Shown: piece by piece, positions 7,598 through 21,710 of the stretch
How the letters are laid out: every line of letters starts with the position of its first letter
How positions within the stretch are numbered: the stretch's first letter is position 1
Assembly (NCBI GenBank): GCA_022826865.1
Contig: JAJDUC010000106.1
Coordinates: 1 to 64,000, forward strand
Source: Anaerolineae bacterium
GTDB lineage: Bacteria; Chloroflexota; Anaerolineae; Aggregatilineales; Phototrophicaceae
Direction of reading: 5' to 3'
DNA: 64,000 bases
The notes under the pieces: generated by a model
What the model was told of the DNA's origin: nothing
Databases searched by the model: none
Seen by the model: the letters and a program-made list of their open reading frames with translations, nothing else
Program-made: the position numbers and the translations under genes

Positions 7598-8770
7598 ATG
7601 CCGCCAGGTTCTCGCCCAGCGGAAACTCAACAAGAGCTCGCATCTCTTTCCCCTCGCTATCTGCGTGAAATGGCCAGCGTCGCCGCCGACGGCCCTGCGC
7701 CAGCGATCAGCGACTTCAGTTTCGAAGCTGTAACCGGCGGCGTCGGCGGCGCAGTCGGCGGGACCGCCATCTACCGCTTCCGGTTAAGCAGCGCAGAAGG
7801 CCCGCTCCCTTCTCTTATCCTCAAGATCCTTTTCCGCCGCGCGACCGAAGATGAGGCTTCGCCCTACTACTGGAAACGCGAATACGAGTTGCATCGCTCG
7901 GACTTGTTGGCAAGCCCCCCGCCGCGGACTTTCGCCTTGCCAAGGGTCTACCGCTGCGAGGACCGCGGCGAAGCCTGCTGGATCTGGATGGAGGACATTC
8001 GCGATACAAAAGACGCCTGGTCGCTGGCGGATTATCAGGACATTGCCCTCCGCCTCGGGCGCTTCAACGGCGCCTGGCTGTCCGCCGCGCGCTTGCCGGA
8101 ATATGCCTGGCTATCGAAAAACTGGCACCGGGCTATCGTCCCGGCCCTATCCAACACGTTTACGGAGCTGGATCAACTGCTGATGCATCCATTGGCGCGA
8201 ATCACGCTGCCGCGGGAAGATCAGGCGGAGATCGAGGCTATCTGGCGCGATCGTGAGTTATTCTGCGGCGCGCTGCGGGCTTTGCCGCAGACCTTCTGCC
8301 ACAATGACGCCTTTCGCCGCAACGTCATGCATGGCCAGGACGAAGTTGTACTGCTGGACTGGGCATTAGCCGGGTCGGGCGCCCTCGGCTCCGATCTCGT
8401 GTCGCTGGTAGCCGTCAGTTTATATTACGATGGCTTCTCGCATGACTTTGCCGAGCAATTGGACCGTGGCGTATTCGCCGGATATATCGCCGGTCTGCGC
8501 CAAGCCGGCTGGACCGACGACGCCCGGCTGGCCCGAATCGGCTATATCTGCGCAATGACCTTGCGTGGGCTGGCGGGCGTCAAACAGGACATCGCGCTCT
8601 TGACTGACGAGTCCTGCCATGAACAGCTTCGCGAGAATCACCGCACGGACAATCTGCGGGAGATTGCCGAGTTCTTCGCCGCTGTTCGCCGCTTTCGCCT
8701 GCTGACTATGGCGCGCGAAGCTAGGCATTTACTGTCCGGCTCGGCTCTTTTGCGTTCGGGCTCCGGATGA
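7598..8770 (+). CDS. Aminoglycoside phosphotransferase/choline-kinase-like (APH fold) protein
   Basis: TFCHNDAFRRNVM ... VVLLDWALAGSGALGSDL (HxDxxxxN and D-W motifs of APH-type kinases). Confidence 0.7.
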   Translation: MPPGSRPAETQQELASLSPRYLREMASVAADGPAPAISDFSFEAVTGGVGGAVGGTAIYRFRLSSAEGPLPSLILKILFRRATEDEASPYYWKREYELHRSDLLASPPPRTFALPRVYRCEDRGEACWIWMEDIRDTKDAWSLADYQDIALRLGRFNGAWLSAARLPEYAWLSKNWHRAIVPALSNTFTELDQLLMHPLARITLPREDQAEIEAIWRDRELFCGALRALPQTFCHNDAFRRNVMHGQDEVVLLDWALAGSGALGSDLVSLVAVSLYYDGFSHDFAEQLDRGVFAGYIAGLRQAGWTDDARLARIGYICAMTLRGLAGVKQDIALLTDESCHEQLRENHRTDNLREIAEFFAAVRRFRLLTMAREARHLLSGSALLRSGSG

Positions 8771-9641
8771 GCGAGAACAACAGACCCAGGGCAATCAGGC
8801 CGCCGCCAATCCACAACGACGACGTCATCGCCTGCCCGAGGATTAACGCCGATAGCAGCACGCCGACCAGCGGCTGCGCGAAGAAGAAGAGCGAGGCGAC
8901 AGTCGCTGGCACGAGAGCAAATGCTCGATTCCACAAGAGCAGGGCCAGCGCTGTCGATACCAAGCCCAGATAGAGCACGCCCAGGACGATACCCGGATCC
9001 AGGCTAACGACGGGCCGCCGCGTCAATTCGATGAGGCTCGCCGGGATGGCGATCAGCAATCCACCAAACAGAGCGACGACGGTCACGGTTAGAGTTGGCA
9101 GTGGATGCCGCAGAGACAGACGGCGCACAAGCACCGAATACAAACCCCAGGTCAAGGCGGAAACCGCCAGGAAGACATCGCCGACGAAGGTTTCCGAGCT
9201 GAAATCCGCCCGGCCCGGATCAAGAATCGCCAGAACGCCGACAGACGCCAGGATGATCGCGCCCAGCCTCAGGATTGTCAGTCTTTCGCGCAAGATGATG
9301 AGGGCGAAGAGGACGACAAAAGCCGGAGACGCGCTCGTGACCAGCGCGCCGTTGACCGCCGTTGACAGGTCCGTACCGACGAACTGTGTGCCCAAGCTGA
9401 TACCGAGCCCGGCTATGCCGACCAACAGTAGATTTCGCAGGCCGGCGCCGCTTGGAAAGGCATGTCCGCGCCTCCGCTCGAGCGGGAGTAAAACCAACAG
9501 CGCCAGCAGAATGCGCAGCGTGAGCAAAGTAAAAGGCGGTATCGCTTCCAGCGTCAAGTCGGAGACCACATACATGCCGCCCCAGATACTCGCTGCCGCG
9601 ATGCCATAAATCGCGCCGCGCCACAGGCTAGAATTTGCCAT
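8721..9641 (-). CDS. EamA/DMT-superfamily permease
   Basis: Two hydrophobic repeats, AAASIWGGMYVVSDLTLEAIPP...; start reset to MANSSLWRG. Confidence 0.82.
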   Translation of the reverse strand: MANSSLWRGAIYGIAAASIWGGMYVVSDLTLEAIPPFTLLTLRILLALLVLLPLERRRGHAFPSGAGLRNLLLVGIAGLGISLGTQFVGTDLSTAVNGALVTSASPAFVVLFALIILRERLTILRLGAIILASVGVLAILDPGRADFSSETFVGDVFLAVSALTWGLYSVLVRRLSLRHPLPTLTVTVVALFGGLLIAIPASLIELTRRPVVSLDPGIVLGVLYLGLVSTALALLLWNRAFALVPATVASLFFFAQPLVGVLLSALILGQAMTSSLWIGGGLIALGLLFSLIRSPNAKEPSRTVNA

Positions 9642-9775
9642 ACCAAGAGCGCTCCCCGCTCGTTGCAGCGCAAGAATACTATCGCAGGCGCTCGTCTCCT
9701 GAAAGGCTGCCCCGCCGCGGAACTGATGAGAATTGAGCCCGCATCGCAGAACGCGCTGGACGCCCAAGAGTATAA

Positions 9776-12700
9776 TTGGAAAGTGAATATGCGCGTTTCG
9801 GCACGATAAGGGGTTCCGTCATCAACGAGAGCTTGGTTTTTGTTTCCTACCATAATATCGACCTTGATTATGCTTTCCGGCTTTCGACCCGCTTGATTAG
9901 CTACTATCGCAATATCTGGCTCGATCGCTTCGCAATCGCGCCTTTGGCCGACTGGGCGGCGGGGATTCGGGAAGCGCGCAACCGGGCGACAGCTGCGATT
10001 GCAATCATATCGGACAGCTACCTTGATTCGGCCTATTGCCGCGCGGAATTTGAGCATTTCCAGGCGAGCGGCATCCCGGTCACCGCGGTGATAGCGCGCG
10101 ATTTCTCCACCGAAATGATCGCCGACTTCGCCTTCAACGACTGGGTCGACTTTCGCCGCTGGTTTGACGATCCCAGTGACCGCAGCCTCGAGAATCTGCT
10201 GAGCCAGATGCCGCCGGTCGAAAGCGCGGCCGGGACAGGCGAACGCCAGGACGCTCTGCGCAGCTTCATTCAGGCGTCCGAGTTGGCCTTGGCAAAGATG
10301 CCCAGCTCCTGGGCCGCTCTTCGCAACAGCGACGGGCCGGGCGCGGCGGAAATACGCCCTCGCATGCTGCAAAGCAGTCTGATCACGGCCGGCGACTTCA
10401 CGGCGCAGAAAGCGGGCGCTTCGCTTGCGGTGGAGGATCTGCTGCAGTGGTCCGCCGACGAGCCCCAATTCGTCGTCAGAGGCGAAGCCGGCGGCGGCAA
10501 AACCTTTTACGCGCGGCTCCTGGCGCTGGCCCAGGCGCATCAGGCGCTCTCGGATACTGAAGAAGCTGTGCCATTTTGGATCGATCTGGCGGGATGGAAT
10601 GGGCAATACGATAGTTTTGAGGCCTTCATGGAAGCGCAATGGCCGCTACTGTCTTATTGGCAGCACTGGTTGGAGAGCAATCCGGCCTTAATCGTATTTG
10701 ACCATTGGAATGATCTCTGCGCGGCCAACCCGATATTCGCGGGCGAAGCCAGCCAATGGATTGATGGCAACCCGAATCAGCGCATTGTGCTGCTTTCAGA
10801 GCGGGCCGGGCCCGGCGATCCAAACCTGCCCTGCCTGCGGATCAACCGCCCAACAACCGCATTCGCGCAAAAGCTCGCCAGCGGCTGCCTCATGCTGGAT
10901 CAACAGAGCGCCTTTCGGCAATTGCTGCGCGAAAAGGCCACGTTCATCGAAGAAAGTCAATTGGCCCAAATTGCGATCGGTATGGAACTGTTCGCGACCG
11001 ACCGGGCGCTTGCCTTCAATCACTGGCAAGCGGACCCGATGCCTGCGCTGCTGACGAACCGCCTGCAGCAGCTCCCCGCGGTGGCCAATGGTCTGAACGC
11101 GGCGCAGATTCTTGGGGCGCTGCGCGGGCTCGCCTGGTCGATGATGCTGCAAGACAATCATCGTTTTATGGCGCGCGCCGCCGCAGAATATCAGTTGGGC
11201 GACAGCCGCATCATCGATGCCGCGCTGGATCTGGGCCTCTTGAGCGCTTGCGGCGACCGGCTTCGCTTCGAGTCAATCGTCATGCAGCGCTTTCTTGCCG
11301 TCGAGAATCTAAAGCAGGACGGACTAATCAAGTATTTGACCCGGCCCGAGTTCGCCGACAGCGGACGCGTCGAGCAGAAGTGGGACGGCCTGGTTCTGAT
11401 CGCGGTCGACTCCGTGCCGGAAGATAGCCGCCTCCGCATCATAGACCAGATTGCCGACATTGACCCCTTCCTCGCTGTTATGTGCCTGCGACGAATCATG
11501 CCGCTGTACAAGGAAAACGCGGAAGGGCTGATCGCCAAGCTTCTGCGCTTGTGCGCCCAAAATCCAAACGCGCAGGGCGCTCTGCGCGCAACGCTCGCCG
11601 GCTTGCCCGATCCCGACTTGACGACAGTGATGATGCTGGGGCAGATGAGTCGCTTCAGCAATTCACAGCAACTCTGGCTCTGGCGCGAGGTGAGCGCGCT
11701 GCAGCTGGAATTGCCGGTGGACTTTTTGAATATCGTAAGCGAGCTCGACCGCCAGTCGGCTATTTCCGTTGCGGACCAGGTCGCCGACTACAACTTGTCG
11801 CTGGCCGTGGCCTGGCTCGTGAAACTCGCCCAGGGGGCGGACAAGAATCTGCGCCAAAACGCGATCTGGATGCTCGGCGAGATCAAATATCTGCCGACGG
11901 CGATCCTGCTGCTGGATTATCTCGAAGATCCCTATCGCAGCGACCAAAGTGAAGTTCTACTCGCGCTGATGAAATTCGCCTATTCCGAAATCCTGGTTCG
12001 GGTCTTGCAGTGGTCGCAGGAAAATCCCGCCCAGCGTAAATCTGTTGTTGCGGCGCTGGCCGCCCGCGGTCGCCTGGTCACAAGCCGCCTTCTCTCATTT
12101 GCCGACGCCCGCAAATTGACGCTCAATCCTGAATTCTACGAGATTGCGGCAAATACAAATGAAACTGATATCGCGCTCGGTTTGGCCGGGGTCATCGGTC
12201 AACGTACGACGCTGCCGGAGTCGCTCGAACTGGCGATCATGCGCCAGAAAAATGCGAGTGAGCTGGAGCGGCGTATCGCCGGCGCCATTAAGCATCTGCC
12301 CAATCGCGAGGGGCTCCAGCAACTGCTCGAGAACATTGTATTGGTCCTGGAAAATCCGCCAGAGTCCACCGTGCTGGCCGGCAGCAACATTGAGGCGCTC
12401 CTCTATGGCAAGCCGCTCTTCGATGAATTCAGCGCGCAGACTGTAGGGACGCATTATGCCACGATCCCGGACGATTTGGCGCAGCAACTCCAACACGCCG
12501 ACTGGCAAAAACGGCAGCGCGCGCTCAGTAGCCTGGTCGACCAGCCGGCTGACCTCGCTCTGCCAATCCTCCTGGAGATGAAGGACGACGAAGACAAGCG
12601 CCTGCGGCTGGCCGTTTACGAAAGCCTGTCCCGCTTCGATGATGAAACCGCGGCGCAGACGGCGCTCATGGCGGCGCTGGAGGATGCAGACCCCGATATC

Positions 12701-13765
12701 ATCGAAGCGGCGACGGGCCTCCTCCAAACGATGAAAGGTATCGACTGCCAGGCCTTGATTGAGCTGCTAAGCAGCGCCCGCCCGGCGACTGTCGCCGCCG
12801 CCATTGAGCTTCTGGCGGAGGCAAAATATGTGGTGGCGGCGCCTGAATTGCGTCGATTGCTGGATGACAGCCGTCTCGCCGCCGAGGGCGAGGCGACGAT
12901 CGGCCAGCGCGCGCGCGCCGCCCTGAACGCTCTTGAAAAATCGCATAGCGCCGGGGCAATCCCGCGGACCGACAGCGCGACCAGCGGGCCCGAGCCGGCC
13001 AGTTACGGCGACGAAGAAAAGATAAGGCGTACACTCCAGGTCTTGCGCGATGACGACTGGGGGCGGGCCCAGAAGGCGGCGCGCTTTCTGCGTAAATTTG
13101 CCCGACACTTGCGAGGCAGCGGCAACCCCAAGATCTTGCCATTGCTGCTTGAAGCGCTTGAGGACAGCAACTGGAGCGTTCGTTGGGCCTCCGCCGAGGC
13201 GCTAGCGATGTTGCAGGATCGCGCCGCAATCCCCAAGTTGGCGCATTGCCTTTCCGACTCGCATTGGATTGTGCAGGCAACGGCGATCCGCGCCCTGGCG
13301 GAGTTAGGCGCCAGCGAAGAAGCCGCGCGCATCGCGCCTCTGCTGCGGAGTCCTCATAAAGCCCTGCGCGAAGCGGCGGCGGAAGCCCTTGGCCAATTGG
13401 GTGATACGCGGGTCATTCCGGCGCTCGGCGACGCCTTGAAAAACGATGCCGATGAATTCTTGCGCTTGGCCGCGCTGAAGTCGATTTATCAAATCAATGC
13501 CGCCGCCGCCCGCCCCTGGCTTGATCTCGCGCTCAGCGACGGCTGTTTGCACTTGCGCCTGTTTGCCATGAAAAGATTGGCGCCACAGATGAATGAGAGC
13601 GACCTGCCCATCCTCCAAGAATTGCTGATCGAAGATGAAACGCCCTCATGGGAAAGTGTATCGCTGCGCGATCTCGCCATTGAGACTTTGCAGCGAATCG
13701 ACAGCGCAGAAAGCCGGGCCCTGCTTCAATATGGCGCTGCGTTGGAAGGGCGAAACGGCGAATGA
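9776..13765 (+). CDS. TIR - P-loop (STAND/NACHT-like) - HEAT-repeat protein; real start possibly TTG 9833
   Basis: TIR: SLVFVSYHNIDLDYAFRLSTRL...IISDSYLDSAYCRAEFEHF; Walker A-like GEAGGGKT; ALIVFDHWNDL; C-terminal HEAT repeats (ALEDSNWSVRWASAEALAMLQDRAAIPKLAHCLSDSHWIVQATAIRALAELG). Confidence 0.82.
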   Translation: MESEYARFGTIRGSVINESLVFVSYHNIDLDYAFRLSTRLISYYRNIWLDRFAIAPLADWAAGIREARNRATAAIAIISDSYLDSAYCRAEFEHFQASGIPVTAVIARDFSTEMIADFAFNDWVDFRRWFDDPSDRSLENLLSQMPPVESAAGTGERQDALRSFIQASELALAKMPSSWAALRNSDGPGAAEIRPRMLQSSLITAGDFTAQKAGASLAVEDLLQWSADEPQFVVRGEAGGGKTFYARLLALAQAHQALSDTEEAVPFWIDLAGWNGQYDSFEAFMEAQWPLLSYWQHWLESNPALIVFDHWNDLCAANPIFAGEASQWIDGNPNQRIVLLSERAGPGDPNLPCLRINRPTTAFAQKLASGCLMLDQQSAFRQLLREKATFIEESQLAQIAIGMELFATDRALAFNHWQADPMPALLTNRLQQLPAVANGLNAAQILGALRGLAWSMMLQDNHRFMARAAAEYQLGDSRIIDAALDLGLLSACGDRLRFESIVMQRFLAVENLKQDGLIKYLTRPEFADSGRVEQKWDGLVLIAVDSVPEDSRLRIIDQIADIDPFLAVMCLRRIMPLYKENAEGLIAKLLRLCAQNPNAQGALRATLAGLPDPDLTTVMMLGQMSRFSNSQQLWLWREVSALQLELPVDFLNIVSELDRQSAISVADQVADYNLSLAVAWLVKLAQGADKNLRQNAIWMLGEIKYLPTAILLLDYLEDPYRSDQSEVLLALMKFAYSEILVRVLQWSQENPAQRKSVVAALAARGRLVTSRLLSFADARKLTLNPEFYEIAANTNETDIALGLAGVIGQRTTLPESLELAIMRQKNASELERRIAGAIKHLPNREGLQQLLENIVLVLENPPESTVLAGSNIEALLYGKPLFDEFSAQTVGTHYATIPDDLAQQLQHADWQKRQRALSSLVDQPADLALPILLEMKDDEDKRLRLAVYESLSRFDDETAAQTALMAALEDADPDIIEAATGLLQTMKGIDCQALIELLSSARPATVAAAIELLAEAKYVVAAPELRRLLDDSRLAAEGEATIGQRARAALNALEKSHSAGAIPRTDSATSGPEPASYGDEEKIRRTLQVLRDDDWGRAQKAARFLRKFARHLRGSGNPKILPLLLEALEDSNWSVRWASAEALAMLQDRAAIPKLAHCLSDSHWIVQATAIRALAELGASEEAARIAPLLRSPHKALREAAAEALGQLGDTRVIPALGDALKNDADEFLRLAALKSIYQINAAAARPWLDLALSDGCLHLRLFAMKRLAPQMNESDLPILQELLIEDETPSWESVSLRDLAIETLQRIDSAESRALLQYGAALEGRNGE

Positions 13766-15441
13766 AGATTTTTGTCAGCTACGCCCGTGTCGACAAGGCC
13801 TTTTGCATTCGCATCATCGAGACCTTGCATGCGCACGATGTCTGGTACGATCAGCGGCTCAACACCGGGCAAGACTGGTGGAAGGAGATTCTGCGCCGGC
13901 TCGATTGGTGCGATCTGTTTGTATACCTGCTTTCGCCGGATTCAGTGGCGTCGCGCTATTGCCGCCGGGAGTTGGAAGTCGCGCTGCAGCTGCGGCGTGA
14001 GATCGTGCCCGTACTGATCGACCGCAGCACGGTGCTGCCAGCGAAAATTAAGGACTGGCAATTTGTTGACCTGTCCGATAGCTTGACCGTGGAAAATGTC
14101 TCGCTGCTGCTGAACGCCATATTGATTGCGGAACGCCGGCGCAGCGCAGCCGCAGCCAACGGCGGCGAACCCGCTCCCGCGTCATCCGACAACCCGGTAG
14201 ATTTGGTCAGCGAAGGCGTTAAGGCGCTGGAAAAGGGCGATTACGACAAGGCCATCGTCCTGCTGAAGCAAGCGCAGGCCAGCGGCTACCGTTCGCGTTT
14301 TGTTCCCTTGGACAAATTGCTGCGGGTCGCGGAATCCGCCGTCGCCGGTCGGTCAAACTCCCGCGAATTAGAGCGAGAGTATCAACATATCGTCGCCCTG
14401 TTCGCCTTTGAAAGCACGCGGCAAATGGCCTGCGAAGCCTTGGCCGAGTTCCAAAAAGAGTTTGGCAATTACGACCCGCAGAACCTGAGGCGATTCTGCA
14501 AATCGGGCGACAGCGCGACAATGGGCATCTCCGATACGGTCAAAGCTTCCGGCATCTTGACCGCGCCGCGGCCGCAGACGCCTGTAAAAACGGCGCGGCA
14601 AGCGCTGGTAAAGGCCGAAGCGCTAACCGCGACGAGCCAGGCCTTGGCCGACGCGCCGCAGAATCAGGCTTTCCTGCGCGCCCGATCGGCCGCCCTCGCC
14701 TTCGATGAGCCGAGCGCGGTCAAAGAGATTTTGCCCATGCTACAATGGTGTGACATTGCGCATGGCAGCGTCACCATCTCCAGCCTTGTCGGCGCCGATG
14801 AAGACTTCGGCGAAATCACCGAGCAAGTTGACAACTTTGTCATGAGCAAGTATCCGGTGACTAATGCGCAATTCGACATCTTTGTCCAAGCGCAGGACGG
14901 TTACAAGAATCCGCGCTGGTGGAGCCATTCGGCGCATGCGCAGCGCTGGTTCAAGCTAGGCAAGGGCGCTGCCGGCTCGCGTTTTAGCGGTGACAGCCTG
15001 CCACGCGAAAATGTCAACTGGTATGAGGCGATGGCATTTGCCAATTGGCTGGGAGATATGCTGAAGATGAAGATCGCGCTGCCGACAATTGCGCAATGGC
15101 AGCGCGCCGCCAAAGGCGATGACGATCGTTATTTCCCCTGGGGCGACGAATACCATGAGGAGCATTGCAACACGCTGGAGACGGGTTTGAAGACTACTAC
15201 GCCGGTCGATCGCTATCACAAAGGCATCAGTCCTTACGGCGTTTTTGACCTGGCGGGCAACATCTGGGAATGGACGCTGAACACAGCGGCGGCCGCAGAA
15301 GACGGGCGCGACTACCGCCGGGCGGTCGCCGGCGGCAGCTTCGTCAGTCCTTGCGACCGCGCCCAGACCTCCTTTCGCTATTACCTCGACCCGCGTGTGC
15401 GGTATTCATCCATAGGCTTTCGCCTGGTCGGCTTGACATGA
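13762..15441 (+). CDS. TIR domain - helical linker - formylglycine-generating-enzyme (FGE/SUMF1) fold protein
   Basis: MKIFVSYARVDKAFCIRIIETLHAHDVWYD...LLSPDSVASRYCRRELEVAL; FGE-like YPVTNAQFDIFVQAQ, LPRENVNWYEAMAFANWLG, LPTIAQWQRAAKGDDDRYFPWGDEY, YGVFDLAGNIWEWTLN, GGSFVSP...SSIGFRLV; ATGA overlap with upstream gene. Confidence 0.88.
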   Translation: MKIFVSYARVDKAFCIRIIETLHAHDVWYDQRLNTGQDWWKEILRRLDWCDLFVYLLSPDSVASRYCRRELEVALQLRREIVPVLIDRSTVLPAKIKDWQFVDLSDSLTVENVSLLLNAILIAERRRSAAAANGGEPAPASSDNPVDLVSEGVKALEKGDYDKAIVLLKQAQASGYRSRFVPLDKLLRVAESAVAGRSNSRELEREYQHIVALFAFESTRQMACEALAEFQKEFGNYDPQNLRRFCKSGDSATMGISDTVKASGILTAPRPQTPVKTARQALVKAEALTATSQALADAPQNQAFLRARSAALAFDEPSAVKEILPMLQWCDIAHGSVTISSLVGADEDFGEITEQVDNFVMSKYPVTNAQFDIFVQAQDGYKNPRWWSHSAHAQRWFKLGKGAAGSRFSGDSLPRENVNWYEAMAFANWLGDMLKMKIALPTIAQWQRAAKGDDDRYFPWGDEYHEEHCNTLETGLKTTTPVDRYHKGISPYGVFDLAGNIWEWTLNTAAAAEDGRDYRRAVAGGSFVSPCDRAQTSFRYYLDPRVRYSSIGFRLVGLT

Positions 15442-15498
15442 ACGCGAGACGCAACTGAAATCGAACGCAGACGCAACAAGCGTGAAGGGAATGCAAAA

Positions 15499-16011
15499 GT
15501 GGATTCGAGCGAACGAAGTCTAAACAAGGCCGGGCCATTCCGTCCCGATATCAACATTGACATTGACCACCTGTCGGTGACGGGTCACGTCGTCTTCGCC
15601 GGGCGCGATGGCCAGGTCAAGGTGCAGACCGGCGGCGATGTCGCGCAGCATACGAATCAGACGGTGACAGTGGGCGGGGTCGAAACCACGCCGCAAGAAT
15701 TTGATATGATGTTGCAGTGCTTTCGCAACGTCGAGGACACGATAAAGAAGCAGGATATGCTGCCGGAATCGCGCGAAGCGGCTATGCACGATTTGCAGAC
15801 TGTGGAAGCGCAACTGACCACGCCCAAGAAACCCAATACACGGCTCCTGCTGCGCGCGGCGAAATCCCTGTTGCGCTTCTCCCCAGCTTTGACCGCCGCC
15901 GCCTTGACCCTGTTCGATCAACCGCTCGTGGGCGCAATTATGGCCAGCGCCGGCGAAGTCGCCATCAACTTTCACGAAGCAATCTCCCGCAATCGCGCCA
16001 AAAAAATCTGA
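15499..16011 (+). CDS. Small putative adaptor/effector: N-terminal beta-motif (SVTGHVVFAGRD...TGGDV), C-terminal helical hydrophobic segment
   Basis: GTG start; embedded in TIR/NACHT operon; shares a motif with the next gene; hydrophobic SPALTAAALTLFDQPLVGAIMASAGEVAINF. Confidence 0.65.
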   Translation: MDSSERSLNKAGPFRPDINIDIDHLSVTGHVVFAGRDGQVKVQTGGDVAQHTNQTVTVGGVETTPQEFDMMLQCFRNVEDTIKKQDMLPESREAAMHDLQTVEAQLTTPKKPNTRLLLRAAKSLLRFSPALTAAALTLFDQPLVGAIMASAGEVAINFHEAISRNRAKKI

Positions 16012-16086
16012 GCGCAGCCGCGTCCATCGTGCCATACTGAAAGGCGCAAAACCCGGTCTGGCGCAAGCCGGCGCGCCCGCCGCGTA

Positions 16087-18549
16087 ATGCCGGGAATTTC
16101 AACATCGCCGGGCAATCAAGAGCGAGACGCGCAAATGAACCAACCTGTGCGGCCGGGCGCCGCCAAGGCCATTGCCAAGCCGGCGCGCGCCGCGCCTGCA
16201 AGTCAGATGATGATCGCCTCGCCCGCCGCCTGGCGCAGTTTCGTCCAAAATAACTGGAGCCAGCTCAAGCGTCAGGCAGACCAGTCGACGCTCGATTCGC
16301 CTTACCAGAAGCTGGTCATGATGGTCTTCACGCCAGTCCTGCCGAATCCGACAACAAAACTGACCTTGCTGCGCCGCCTGCTGAAGCGCTATCGCTACTG
16401 CGGGCCATTGAGCAAGCGCCTGACAGAGATCTATCGCGACCGCAATTACAGGCGGACGGCGGAAGACCTGGCGCGGCAGGACCTCTTGCCGGAAAAACTG
16501 AACAGCGATGAATTGGTCGGGCTGGACTGGCTGATCGTGGCGACCGGCGGCTTGGACGGCTCGGCCAACCAAGGGGTGAAGGCAATGCAATTCGCGCGCA
16601 ATCTGCTTGAAACCATGCGCGAACATACCGATTATCCGTCGGCCGTGCGCGTACAGGCGGGCAGCATCTCCGCCGGCGGGCATGTCATCTTCGCCGGCCA
16701 GGATGTCAATATCGTGGCCGAGCATTACCAAGGCAACAAGTCTGCGCTGAAAGCTTATCTCGCCGCCGTGCGCAGCGAATGGAATATCCCGACGACCACC
16801 ATTCACCCGGCGTCGCAGCATCATACGCCGGCCATGCTGCATCAGCTTTACACGCCAGTTGACATCTGGACGGACCAGCGGCAGTTCCACGCGGTAAGCA
16901 TCGAAGAACTGAACGCGAGGCGCTATCAAGCTATCGAAAAAGACATGGGGTTCGTCCGCGAATCGGTCTTTGAGGTTGTCTCCGCGCAGCCCTTGATTGT
17001 CATCACGGGCGCCGCTGGCACGGGCAAGAGCTCCTTGTGCCGCTTCATCGTCACCGCCCTGGCTTATGCCTGCGACCCACGCGCCGAGCGACAGGACAAG
17101 GTAAAGGGTTTGGAGATGCTGGGCGCCTCCTGGATTCACGGTCCGATCTTGCCGATTTATGTCAGCCTGCGCGATTTCGCCAATTCGCCCAACCTGTTTC
17201 CCAAAGCGATGGGCGAAGCCTCGGCGGCGCGGCTGCTCGATTACATCAAACGGGCCACCGGCAACCTGGCGCCTCATCTGGAAGGCTATCTGACCCAAAG
17301 CGCTGTGCCGACTCACGGCAGTTTGCTTGTGCTTGACGGCCTCGACGAGGTCTATGAGGAGCATGACCGCATCCTTCTGCAGCGGATCATCGAGAACTGG
17401 GTCGATCGTTTTCCAAGCTGTCGCATCATCGTCACCAGCCGCACCTACGCCTACCGCCACGATTCGCGCTGGCGCCTGTCCGATCGCTTCGCCTCGGCGG
17501 AGTTGGCGCCCTTTACCTGGCAGCAAGTCCAGACTTATATTGAACGCTGGTATGACAATGTCGCTCAGAACCGCCCCGGCGTTCTGGGCGGGCGCGCAGT
17601 CGCGCCGAAGCAGGCCGCCCTGATGGCCGCTGATCTTAACAAGACCATCCGCGAAACGCGGGCGCTCTGGCCGCTGGCGCGTCAGCCATTGATGCTCGCC
17701 TTGCTCACCCTGATTCACGAAGACTACAAGCAACTGCCGGATAAACGCGCCGAGCTCTATGAACATACGGTTGAATTGCTGGACCGCTGGAATATTCCCT
17801 CGCCCGCCGACAAGCTGCATGAGAAGCTGGCCAATATCAATCTCGACCGCATGCGGGCCGCCTTAAAACTGATCGCCTTTGAGCTGCACTCCGAACAGCA
17901 AAGTTATCAGCGCTATCCCACGATCATTCAACGGGGGCGTTTGCTGGATAAGCTGGTCGAGCAGCAGGCGCTGGGCGGCGGTTTGGGGGCGGGCATTGAA
18001 GATGTCCTGGAATACCTGGCGACCCGCAACGGCATCCTGGTCTCGGACGCGCCCAATCTATATCGCTTTCCTCACTTGACGATTCAGGAATATCTGGCGG
18101 CCTGCGCGCTACTTGAATTCTACGATGAGTGCCAAATGCCGGCTGAACTGCGGCCACAGAGCGCCGAGGGCTGGATCTTTCCGGAGAATATCGTCGCTCT
18201 CCTTTGCCACGATTACGCTCGCTGGCGCAACGTGGCGCTCTTCGCCGGCGCGATCATCGCTGCCGGCAAGTGGCAGGATATGCGCTGGCATCTCATCGAC
18301 GAATTGCTGCCAACCAGATTTGAAGGGACCTTGTCCGAACAAGCGCTGCATTGCATCAGCGTTGCGGCGGAAATATGGGGCGAAAGCTGGCTCAAGTCGC
18401 GCACGCGCAGTCAATTCGGAATCGAGTCTCATCTGGTGACTTGCCTGCGGCATATTCACGGGGATGAACGCATCGACGCGCCCGAGCGCGCCAATAACTA
18501 CGCCATCCTGTCCCGGCTGGCGCGCAATCAACCGGCCCGAGCCCAATGA
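16087..18549 (+). CDS. NACHT-domain STAND NTPase
   Basis: Walker A GAAGTGKSS, Walker B SLLVLDGLDEV, CRIIVTSRTYAYR sensor-1-like, ELAPFTWQQVQTYIERWY, FPHLTIQEYLAACAL. Confidence 0.88.
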   Translation: MPGISTSPGNQERDAQMNQPVRPGAAKAIAKPARAAPASQMMIASPAAWRSFVQNNWSQLKRQADQSTLDSPYQKLVMMVFTPVLPNPTTKLTLLRRLLKRYRYCGPLSKRLTEIYRDRNYRRTAEDLARQDLLPEKLNSDELVGLDWLIVATGGLDGSANQGVKAMQFARNLLETMREHTDYPSAVRVQAGSISAGGHVIFAGQDVNIVAEHYQGNKSALKAYLAAVRSEWNIPTTTIHPASQHHTPAMLHQLYTPVDIWTDQRQFHAVSIEELNARRYQAIEKDMGFVRESVFEVVSAQPLIVITGAAGTGKSSLCRFIVTALAYACDPRAERQDKVKGLEMLGASWIHGPILPIYVSLRDFANSPNLFPKAMGEASAARLLDYIKRATGNLAPHLEGYLTQSAVPTHGSLLVLDGLDEVYEEHDRILLQRIIENWVDRFPSCRIIVTSRTYAYRHDSRWRLSDRFASAELAPFTWQQVQTYIERWYDNVAQNRPGVLGGRAVAPKQAALMAADLNKTIRETRALWPLARQPLMLALLTLIHEDYKQLPDKRAELYEHTVELLDRWNIPSPADKLHEKLANINLDRMRAALKLIAFELHSEQQSYQRYPTIIQRGRLLDKLVEQQALGGGLGAGIEDVLEYLATRNGILVSDAPNLYRFPHLTIQEYLAACALLEFYDECQMPAELRPQSAEGWIFPENIVALLCHDYARWRNVALFAGAIIAAGKWQDMRWHLIDELLPTRFEGTLSEQALHCISVAAEIWGESWLKSRTRSQFGIESHLVTCLRHIHGDERIDAPERANNYAILSRLARNQPARAQ

Positions 18550-18969: not shown

Positions 18970-19152
18970 TATCGACCGTATGCCGACATTCGCATGAGTT
19001 ACTTGGGAATACTTCTGTGGTTAAAGAAAATCTGAAGCGGCTGCCTTGGCTTGATCCTGTAAAGTCTTGACATCAGCGTGAGCGGGCACTACGTTCTACT
19101 AACGGCTCGCTGGCTAGCTGTATCATCCAAGTTCTACCGCGGAGGAATCATC

Positions 19153-20343
19153 GTGCATGTCTTACGGCTTCTCATTGTTGCAACCGTCGCTTTGCTCGCC
19201 GGCGCAATCGCCGCCCAAGACTCCGATTCCGCGATTCTCGTCTCGCGCGAGAGCGCGCCCAGCGCTTCGAATGTCAAATTGACAACTATCGCCGCCGGGC
19301 TGACACGCCCGATTTATGTCGCCAATGCGGGCGATGGCTCCGGCCGTCTTTTCCTGGTCGAACAGACCGGGCTCATCTGGCCCTACAAAGACGGTCTGCG
19401 CCTGACGCCGGCCTTTCTCGATGTGTCGCGCTTAATCTCCCAAGTCGCATTGACCAGCCGATATACTGAGCAAGGCTTGCTCGGTTTGGCCTTCCATCCG
19501 GATTATGCCTCCAATGGCTATTTCTTCGTCAACTATACCGACCGCAACGGCAGCACCATCGTCGCCCGTTATCAAGTCTCAGCCGAAGATCCGAACATAG
19601 CCGACGCCAGCAGCGGCCAAATCATCTTTCAACTGGCGCAACCCTATACCAATCACAATGGCGGCCATATTGACTTTGGTCCCGATGGATACCTTTACAT
19701 TACGCTGGGCGATGGCGGCTCGGCAAACGACCCCTTGGGCGCCGGGCAGAATCGCCGGCTGCTCCTCGGTTCCATTCTGCGCATTGATGTCGACGGCGCG
19801 GCGCCTTATGCAATTCCGACGGACAATCCCTTCGTTGGCGACCCGGCTGCGCTGGACGAGATCTGGTCTTACGGCTTGCGCAACGTCTGGCGCTTCAGCT
19901 TCGACCGCCTGACCGGCGATATGTACCTGGCGGATGTCGGGCAGAACAAATGGGAAGAAGTCAACTTCCAGCCGGCCGTGAGCGCGGGCGGCGAGAATTA
20001 CGGTTGGAACGTCTGGGAAGGCAGCCAAATCTTCGCCGGCGGAACCGCCCAAAATCATGTTCCACCCTTCTTTGAGTACGACCATGCGCTGGGCTGCTCG
20101 GTGACAGGCGGTTATGTTTACCGCGGCGAAGCGATCGCGGATTTGCAAGCGGCGTATCTATTTGGCGACTACTGTACCGGCCGGATTTGGGCATCCTGGC
20201 GCGATCATAATCACACTTGGCATACGGCGGAGTTCATGCGGACGGATCTGCAGATCAGCAGCTTCGGGCAGGATGAGGCGGGCGAGTTGTATGTCATTGA
20301 TTATGGAGGCGCGATTTATCGATTCGATCCGGTGGGCGCTTAA
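19153..20343 (+). CDS. PQQ-dependent sugar (glucose/sorbosone) dehydrogenase-like secreted protein
   Basis: LTRPIYVANAGDGSGRLFLVEQTGLI, GLLGLAFHPDYASNGYFFVNYT, HNGGHIDFGPDGYLYITLGDGG; GTG start behind ggagg. Confidence 0.82.
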   Translation: MHVLRLLIVATVALLAGAIAAQDSDSAILVSRESAPSASNVKLTTIAAGLTRPIYVANAGDGSGRLFLVEQTGLIWPYKDGLRLTPAFLDVSRLISQVALTSRYTEQGLLGLAFHPDYASNGYFFVNYTDRNGSTIVARYQVSAEDPNIADASSGQIIFQLAQPYTNHNGGHIDFGPDGYLYITLGDGGSANDPLGAGQNRRLLLGSILRIDVDGAAPYAIPTDNPFVGDPAALDEIWSYGLRNVWRFSFDRLTGDMYLADVGQNKWEEVNFQPAVSAGGENYGWNVWEGSQIFAGGTAQNHVPPFFEYDHALGCSVTGGYVYRGEAIADLQAAYLFGDYCTGRIWASWRDHNHTWHTAEFMRTDLQISSFGQDEAGELYVIDYGGAIYRFDPVGA

Positions 20344-21710
20344 GCCAGCTCAGGCGCTTCCTCGACGACGATGCCTGCTCGCGTACGTTTATACTGCGCG
20401 ATAAGCGTCTTGATTTGCAATTCAATTGGATGATAGCGTTTCATCACTTGCCCCCCTTCCGTTTGCAACTGGCGCATGCGCGTTTCAATCTGCCGCAAAC
20501 GGGACAACAAACTCCCATCGCGCCTCTTCCAATTCATATAGGCCAGCGGCACAAGAAGAGCAAAAGCGCCGCCCAAGCCATACATGATATTGCCATAATT
20601 GGATTCGCCGATGGCATGCAAATAATAGCCGACCGCGCCGCTCGCCACGACAAGCATGATGTGCAAGATCAGTCGCCGCGATAGCGCGCCGCGCTTCTGA
20701 CGCATATCCAACCTGTTTTGCAGCTTCTCTTGCTGTGCGCGCAAGCCAGCCAATTCGCCGCGGATTTCGTTGACGCGTTCGCGCAGCGGCTGCCCTTCTT
20801 CAATGAATGTGTCGAGGCGATTCTTGATCAGCCGCGCCGACTCCCAGGTATCCATCATCCGGCTGTAATGCACTTCCAGCGCCTTGATCTGCAATTCAAG
20901 CGGTTGATAACTTTGACGATACTGCGTGCCTTCTTGCTTCAATTGCAGTATCTGCTCCTCCAGCTTGCGCTGTTTTCGCGCGGTGCGCGTTCTTGGGTCC
21001 TTCCAGTTGGCAATCACTATCGGAATGAGAACGACGCATATCGCGCACAAAGCCAAGGCGGCAAGGCTCAGATCGCGCGAGCTGTCCAGGTAGTGGAGGC
21101 CGGCCCAGCCGCTGACCACGATCAACACAATCAACAAGAAGACACGGCGGATTACAAATGAGCGCTTCCCGCGGTTGTCAATTTTCTGCTGACGTTTCTG
21201 ATGCGTCTCTGTTAAGGCTTCCAGATTGTTGCGTATGCTGTTCAGTTGTTCCCAGGCCGGCTGACCCTGCTGGCGCAATGCATCAAGACGGGCCTTGAAC
21301 TGCTTTATCCTCAGCCAGTCGTCGTATTGCTCTTGTCCGCCGATAAACCACTCGCCGGATGATTCGTCGCCAAATATGAAACGCCCAAAGTTAAAACTGT
21401 AAGGCAAAGGTTTGCCGTTGCTCAGACTGCGCTCGAGGTCGTTCACCTCGTCCACGAGCAATTCATGCAATAAAAGGAGCAAATTAAGCGGCACCGCCAG
21501 CCGTCTGGATTCATCGGCCGAAGTCTTTGCGTTGCCGCCAAGGCTATCGCGGTGCAGGGCAAGCCCAGTCCGCATCCTGCCCAGTTCCTGGCGGACGCGG
21601 CGAATGCCGGCGGCTCGGTCGCGCGTCTCCACGTGCGGCTGAAACAGCCGCGGGATTTCTATCGCGTGGAAATCATCCAGATAATCCTGTGGCGCTGGCT
21701 GTTCTATCAT
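20340..21710 (-). CDS. Coiled-coil/transmembrane protein with internal duplication, function unknown
   Basis: Two similar coiled-coil-TM-TM-coil units, each ending QLxxEGxQxxxxYxPxELQIKxLxxxY. Confidence 0.6.
   Translation of the reverse strand: MIEQPAPQDYLDDFHAIEIPRLFQPHVETRDRAAGIRRVRQELGRMRTGLALHRDSLGGNAKTSADESRRLAVPLNLLLLLHELLVDEVNDLERSLSNGKPLPYSFNFGRFIFGDESSGEWFIGGQEQYDDWLRIKQFKARLDALRQQGQPAWEQLNSIRNNLEALTETHQKRQQKIDNRGKRSFVIRRVFLLIVLIVVSGWAGLHYLDSSRDLSLAALALCAICVVLIPIVIANWKDPRTRTARKQRKLEEQILQLKQEGTQYRQSYQPLELQIKALEVHYSRMMDTWESARLIKNRLDTFIEEGQPLRERVNEIRGELAGLRAQQEKLQNRLDMRQKRGALSRRLILHIMLVVASGAVGYYLHAIGESNYGNIMYGLGGAFALLVPLAYMNWKRRDGSLLSRLRQIETRMRQLQTEGGQVMKRYHPIELQIKTLIAQYKRTRAGIVVEEAPELA

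Follow-up and report, generated by a model that had tools for sequence, protein, structure and literature searches.

We analysed a 64,000-nucleotide window of an Anaerolineae genome (contig JAJDUC010000106.1), in which positions 9776-18549 hold a four-gene cassette. An earlier note, made from the sequence alone, had proposed this cassette as an immune module centred on an ATPase of the NOD-like receptor (NLR) type. All four open reading frames (ORFs) lie on the + strand and encode proteins of 1329, 559, 170 and 820 amino acids (aa), with a TTG start for gene 1 and a GTG start for gene 3. Gene 1 (9776..13765, +) combines a TIR domain, a degenerate P-loop NTPase resembling those of the STAND class (signal transduction ATPases with numerous domains) and HEAT repeats, and is kept in 18 loci of the genus. 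Gene 2 (13762..15441, +) joins a TIR domain through a helical linker to an FGE-sulfatase fold (FGE, formylglycine-generating enzyme). Gene 3 (15499..16011, +) encodes a small protein resembling TCAD2, and gene 4 (16087..18549, +), from Pfam and AlphaFold2 (AF2), a helical N-terminal domain, a beta motif, a NACHT ATPase and a helical C-terminus. The Pfam scan of genes 1, 2 and 4 backed the TIR/HEAT, TIR/FGE and NACHT domain calls of the note.

The coordinates of the four ORFs were also confirmed, with a 4-bp ATGA overlap between genes 1 and 2 followed by annotated gaps of 57 and 75 bp. The overlap and the 57-bp gap hold. Orthologues of gene 4 begin at MN.P and several have stop codons upstream; therefore the true start is most likely the ATG at 16135 (MNQPV...), and the last gap 123 bp. 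These in-frame stops sit upstream of the real start and are no sign of a pseudogene. Promoter and terminator scans gave signals no better than those of shuffled sequence.

Orthologues of gene 4 (82-87% identity) were present in 28/28 other sampled genomes of the genus, and genes 1-4 were found in the same order and between the same chromosomal flanks in 18/18 genus loci examined. Because reading frames and flanks are conserved in 18 other genus genomes, with ratios of nonsynonymous to synonymous substitution rates (dN/dS) of 0.03-0.18, the ORFs are not due to chance: they are real and form one unit. Five loci outside the genus carried a gene 4 orthologue (L088, 52% identity; L094, 48%; L092/L056, 45%; L091, 42%; L093/L057, 37%), and all four families stood together in each of the five. 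Homologues of the four genes thus do co-occur elsewhere, as expected for the single conserved multi-gene module proposed in the note.

Two arrangements were distinguished. In type I (the genus, L088 and L091), the TIR-NTPase-HEAT, TIR-FGE, gene 3 and NACHT genes follow each other on one strand. In type II (L056, L093 and L094), gene 1 is reduced to its HEAT part, the TIR-FGE gene is kept, and gene 3 lies beside a receiver-domain protein on the strand opposite NACHT. This receiver-domain protein (L056:5827-6420, L057:2888-3334, L094:1259-1654) is 55-67% identical between loci. The next-nearest NACHT genes (~30% identity) come without genes 1 and 3, and are NACHT-FGE fusions or have FGE nearby. 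A chance or loose cluster of unrelated TIR and NACHT genes is extremely improbable: the abundance of TIR, NACHT and HEAT domains in the phylum is all that favours it, whereas co-occurrence in 24 loci (19 in the genus and 5 outside) from at least six lineages, with the order kept in type I, and the lack of genes 1 and 3 beside the next-nearest NACHT genes refute it.

Gene 4 matched NACHT in Pfam (E 1.3e-12). Its NACHT core (16993..17556, +) contains Walker A GAAGTGKSS and Walker B LLVLDGLDE, both invariant in 19 genus members, in agreement with the canonical NACHT ATPase described earlier. PADLOC returned only P-loop matches for gene 4 (E>=6e-4), and its NCBIfam match to EruA scored 24 bits where the cut-off is 1000. 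No recognisable repeat sensor was seen in the protein.

Gene 1 matched TIR_2 (E 1e-12; aa 21-141, 9836..10198, +), HEAT_2 (3.6e-43; C-terminal repeats at approximately aa 1083-1312, 13022..13711, +) and, below threshold, NACHT at the P-loop (3.8e-4). The Lys of its Walker A (GEAGGGKT, aa 236-243, 10481..10504, +) is kept in 18/19 orthologues, and in the alignment of genus orthologues its Walker B is degenerate (hhhhDN, without the second acid). Gene 2 matched TIR_2 (E 2.7e-22; aa 3-107, 13768..14082, +) and FGE-sulfatase (5.2e-40; aa 332-556, 14755..15429, +). The Glu at the catalytic position of each TIR, E91 in gene 1 and E70 in gene 2, is unchanged in 19/19 genus members, which supports the note's claim of two TIR proteins with a catalytic Glu.

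Active formylglycine-generating enzymes carry a catalytic cysteine pair in the pattern GGSxxC-x4-C. The corresponding stretch of gene 2 reads GGSFVSPCDRA, and in all 19 genus members S529 and A534 occupy what we take from this pattern to be the catalytic-cysteine positions; SUMF1 alignments stop short of the region. The solved structures closest to the domain are ToxD, EgtB-type proteins and the Treponema variable protein TvpA; FGE enzymes appear among or below these. No reverse transcriptase was detected in the genome at E<=0.001. The domain is probably catalytically dead and, because the cysteine pair of the enzyme is missing and there is no reverse transcriptase, probably acts as a fixed ligand-binding domain. 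The last 40 aa of the domain are 93% conserved among the 19 genus members. An antigen receptor diversified by a diversity-generating retroelement (DGR) was ruled out by this conserved C-terminus and by the genome devoid of reverse transcriptase.

Gene 3 matched nothing in Pfam, and TCAD2 (PF19971) went unmatched even at E<=1. NCBIfam gave no match either, and PADLOC gave a single weak one (PDC-M14B, E 5e-4). The gene-3 family was then aligned as a profile with a set of TCAD2 proteins gathered from the class Anaerolineae, and hhalign returned a probability of 96% and an E of 1.1e-9 over 77 columns. TCAD2 proteins of the class likewise carry glycine-rich beta stretches directly before the helical domain. 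By this profile comparison, gene 3 is a remote TCAD2-like protein. Its AF2 model has low confidence over aa 1-52, then six helices within the C-terminal, TCAD2-like domain (aa 65-166, 15691..15996, +). The beta motif and helical C-terminus described earlier were thus recovered, but the hydrophobic character then ascribed to the latter does not amount to a membrane-spanning helix, since peak hydropathy is 1.43, under the usual cut of 1.6. A TRADD-N identity is unsupported by any Pfam match.

A gene-3 profile search across the class gave matches in 29/396 genomes from 18 genera. The gene 3 match in L003 looks spurious. Elsewhere, gene-3-like proteins stand alone beside NB-ARC/NACHT (STAND) genes, or are fused to CHAT proteases or to a kinase that has an EAD7-like segment. 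One stand-alone relative, adjoining a NACHT-FGE gene, has a TCAD2 Pfam score of 26.6 for a cut-off of 27. Within the genus, one of the 18 loci has gene 3 split over two frames (L039:8508-8997, from the metagenome-assembled genome G412), through a frameshift or an assembly error.

The N-terminal beta motif of gene 3 (..LSVTGHVVFAGRDGQV) recurs just upstream of the gene 4 NACHT as ..SISAGGHVIFAGQDVNIV. The two segments, aa 19-42 of gene 3 (NIDIDHLSVTGHVVFAGRDGQVKV; 15553..15624, +) and aa 188-211 of gene 4 (RVQAGSISAGGHVIFAGQDVNIVA; 16648..16719, +), match without gaps (blastp E 0.001), and the gene 4 part GGHVIFAGQDVNIV is identical in 19/19 genus members. Five divergent lineages have the pair in corresponding positions. 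When sequences were shuffled, 0-1/500 reached the motif score in four of these lineages; L091 was weaker, with 53/500. This common motif suggests how the two proteins may recognise each other. The earlier note had overlooked it, as well as the kinship of gene 3 with TCAD2 and the probable inactivity of the FGE enzyme.

Pairing was also seen beyond the cassette. In NB-ARC/NACHT loci of other families in Anaerolineae, both partners carry a different common motif, ISGQVAxGxNIxQ. Over ten loci, cognate motifs scored 47 against 16 for non-cognate ones (permutation p<5e-5), a difference that arises mainly between classes; the within-class p was 0.08 for cassette loci and 0.025 for the others. When each 24-aa motif was compared with all other ORFs of its own locus, the partner gene was the best match in 16/18 loci, although the 24-aa windows were chosen after some pairs had been seen and several loci are related, so that these are not 18 independent events. 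The exceptions were L155, where the neighbour ranked second because another gene bearing the motif outscored it, and L151, with none. In 7/18 loci the motif is paired with a TPR-type protein instead of an NLR (Pfam confirmed TPR in L147, L150 and L154). These sets (L146, L147, L150 and L153-L156; Anaerolineae outside the genus) consist of a CHAT-fused or stand-alone TCAD2-like protein and a TPR-type protein of 510-575 aa in which the N-terminus is followed by a hydrophobic segment, and both partners share GDxIIAxVGxGxxxVxVGKNIxQ. Judged by their motifs, they are a putative non-NLR version of the paired-motif rule, a rule which TCAD2-like proteins apparently follow more generally.

The inheritance of the cassette was assessed from pairwise distances. 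Those of genes 1, 2 and 4 correlated with those of two left-flank genes, EamA and the kinase-like gene (r 0.86-0.94; 0.88-0.94 for genes 1 and 4 alone). Distances thus track the flanks, which indicates vertical inheritance within the genus. Mean pairwise identity rose from 57% for gene 1 to 71% for gene 2, 79% for gene 3 and 85% for gene 4. For close pairs, where a pair could be scored, dN/dS was 0.18 for gene 1, 0.11-0.14 for gene 2, 0.03-0.07 for gene 3 and 0.04-0.07 for gene 4, the last below most neighbouring genes. Genes 3 and 4 are therefore under the strongest purifying selection. Positive selection on gene 1 was rejected: it is the fastest evolving of the four, yet its dN/dS is below or near that of its neighbours.

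Phage records contained no relative of the cassette, plasmid matches were to generic NACHT only (24-27% identity), and viral contigs gave one generic match. Together with the fixed locus and the distances that track neighbouring genes, these results rule out a mobile defence island. The cassette is an ancient, vertically inherited core locus of the genus; in this and in its slow evolution it differs from the patchy islands typical of phage defence.

The same observations favour a fixed non-immune module, in which a NACHT/TCAD2-like core and TIR proteins would run housekeeping stress, life-cycle or host-associated programmed death with no role against phages. Presence in every sampled genome of the genus at one place, distances that follow the EamA and kinase-like flanks, the low dN/dS of gene 4, the receiver domain attached in type II loci and the absence from phage records all fit this explanation. 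Outside the genus, however, the distribution is patchy with two gene arrangements, as in conflict systems, of which TIR, NACHT and FGE are known parts. There is also no restriction to sponges, as L088 and L091-L094 are not titled sponge genomes. We consider a non-immune module unlikely.

We favour a four-protein STAND/NLR-type conflict or cell-death module with TIR outputs, and give this interpretation an even chance of being correct. Gene 4 would act as an ATP-driven switch, whose activated NACHT domain would assemble and expose the beta motif before it. This motif may then dock with, and possibly template, the N-terminal motif of gene 3, a contact suggested by the motif and its family. Gene 3 would in turn recruit output proteins or act itself. 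The two TIR proteins would be the likely catalytic output, cleaving NAD+ as their conserved Glu suggests, and ligands would probably be sensed by the gene 1 HEAT array and by the FGE/lectin-like fold in gene 2. An infected or damaged cell would eventually lose its NAD+ and stop growing or die. Of the functions that the note spread over separate genes, the NLR-like hub and the two TIR proteins with their Glu are supported; a sensor made of repeats in gene 4 is not.

Several observations weigh against this conflict-module interpretation. Anti-phage receptors are seldom fixed throughout a genus and seldom evolve slowly. The AF2 models of genes 3 and 4 are weak (predicted local distance difference test scores, pLDDT, of 64 and 63) with disordered motifs, and a PDB fold search with the gene 3 model gave no match. 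Moreover, the motif match distinguishes classes of system better than it does single loci, as the p of 0.08 within cassette loci indicates, and a common motif alone is no proof of contact between genes 3 and 4.

A related alternative keeps the same system but makes the motif an ordinary beta-strand docking or assembly element that does not form amyloid, with the TIR proteins recruited by conventional contacts. Short repeats of beta-strand or beta-turn type can also have the pattern G-x-V/I-x-h-x-G, the gene 4 motif lies mid-protein and not at the N-terminus, and AF2 shows no structure at the motif. On the other side, the layout is that of NLR/effector amyloid motif pairs, with a short motif, an unstructured context and adjacent genes (PMC7889193), and on visual comparison the motif family is similar to BASS3-type peptides from the literature (PMC8086366). 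We place this alternative just short of an even chance.

The cassette, seen here as a conflict module, was compared with known systems. It matched no system in PADLOC, and PADLOC and NCBIfam scans of genes 1, 2 and 4 gave similarity to TIR, HEAT or P-loop domains only, which bears out the view that no catalogued system fits. Avs and bNACHT systems also have a NACHT/STAND ATPase at their core; they are largely single-gene, with a fused effector and a C-terminal sensor, whereas gene 4 has no recognisable fused effector or repeats and no PADLOC match beyond the P-loop. The gene 2 TIR weakly resembles ThsB/ThcB4 of Thoeris, but it is fused to FGE and the cassette has no ThsA-like gene. MoxR-vWA ternary systems (MoxR ATPase, vWA and VMAP/iSTAND) were not recognised in the scanned neighbours, which are EamA and GSDH (glucose/sorbosone dehydrogenase), both fixed in the genus. 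TCAD2 (PF19971) is a helical domain whose profile shows homology to gene 3 and which likewise follows G-rich beta repeats, but gene 3 falls below the Pfam threshold and no ternary (MoxR-vWA) genes are nearby.

Two other classes are closer. Pairings of STAND-FGE and TIR have been put forward as counter-invader systems (Kaur et al. 2021, PMC8195603), and in STAND-FGS systems the STAND NTPase is fused to FGS/FGE, with a bDLD3/EAD adaptor and an FGE often linked to a DGR (PMC8195603). As there, NACHT, FGE fold and TIR share one neighbourhood and an adaptor domain links partners; neighbouring Chloroflexota loci even show the classical NACHT-FGE fusion. In the cassette, however, FGE is fused to TIR and gene 4 is without it, the adaptor is TCAD2-like and not bDLD3/EAD, a TIR-NTPase-HEAT protein is added, and there is no DGR. 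BASS/Bell amyloid signalosomes carry the motif at the NLR N-terminus and at the C-terminus of the effector, Bell (Dyrka 2020, as described in PMC7889193). They are described from actinobacteria, cyanobacteria and archaea, with no Chloroflexota case in the parts of the literature consulted (PMC7889193). Here too an NLR and an adjoining small helical partner share a short glycine-rich beta motif. The gene 3 motif, however, is N-terminal to the helical domain and the gene 4 motif follows one (aa 188-211), the small effector is TCAD2-like, and the motif is only putatively amyloid. Because two defining placements fail, that of the motif and that of FGE on STAND, we assign the cassette to neither BASS/Bell nor EAD/STAND-FGS. 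The arrangement is apparently an undescribed STAND-TIR-FGE conflict-system variant with unusual fixation, its novelty being provisional.

The left flank in the genus comprises an ABC transporter ATPase, a 390-aa kinase-like gene (absent from one locus) and an EamA transporter (8721..9767, -); the right flank is GSDH (19078..20343, +), then a coiled-coil protein with hydrophobic segments. EamA and GSDH, fixed flanks by Pfam and synteny, lie outside the module. GSDH is tandemly duplicated in two genus members (L043:619-3151, L049:11479-13764). The coiled-coil neighbour (20340-21710, -; 456 aa) has no clear Pfam family and is 62-75% identical within the genus. Elsewhere, several NACHT and FGE units stand in tandem on one contig (L095:1571-10292), and a 113-aa fragment 50% identical to the gene 4 C-terminus occurs in another genus of the family (G240:C220:10026-10352), possibly a cassette remnant or a contig artefact.

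The host genus is mostly sponge-associated Chloroflexota; judging by their names, several isolate prefixes (COS, RHO, CAR) correspond to sponges that were sampled in PMC8163846, namely Coscinoderma, Rhopaloeides and Carteriospongia. A bolder proposal, which we hold to be doubtful, is that the paired motifs are prokaryotic templating signals of a new class, not recognised so far and based on TCAD2-like domains. Such signals would link NLR ATPases, or TPR-containing partners in sister systems, to small or CHAT-fused executors. The sponge-lineage cassette would be the most complex example, its two TIR outputs being maintained as a core trait by strong purifying selection.

At the sequence level, the paired motifs would provide a rule for matching small proteins to their bacterial NLR, beyond the described BASS/Bell pairs. 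Whether such signalling motifs work outside NLRs is a question raised in PMC7889193, and the CHAT/TPR gene pairs that obey the rule bear on it. Finally, a STAND-TIR module is unusual as a core gene set of a mostly sponge-associated genus, and a non-phage or holobiont role for it becomes testable.

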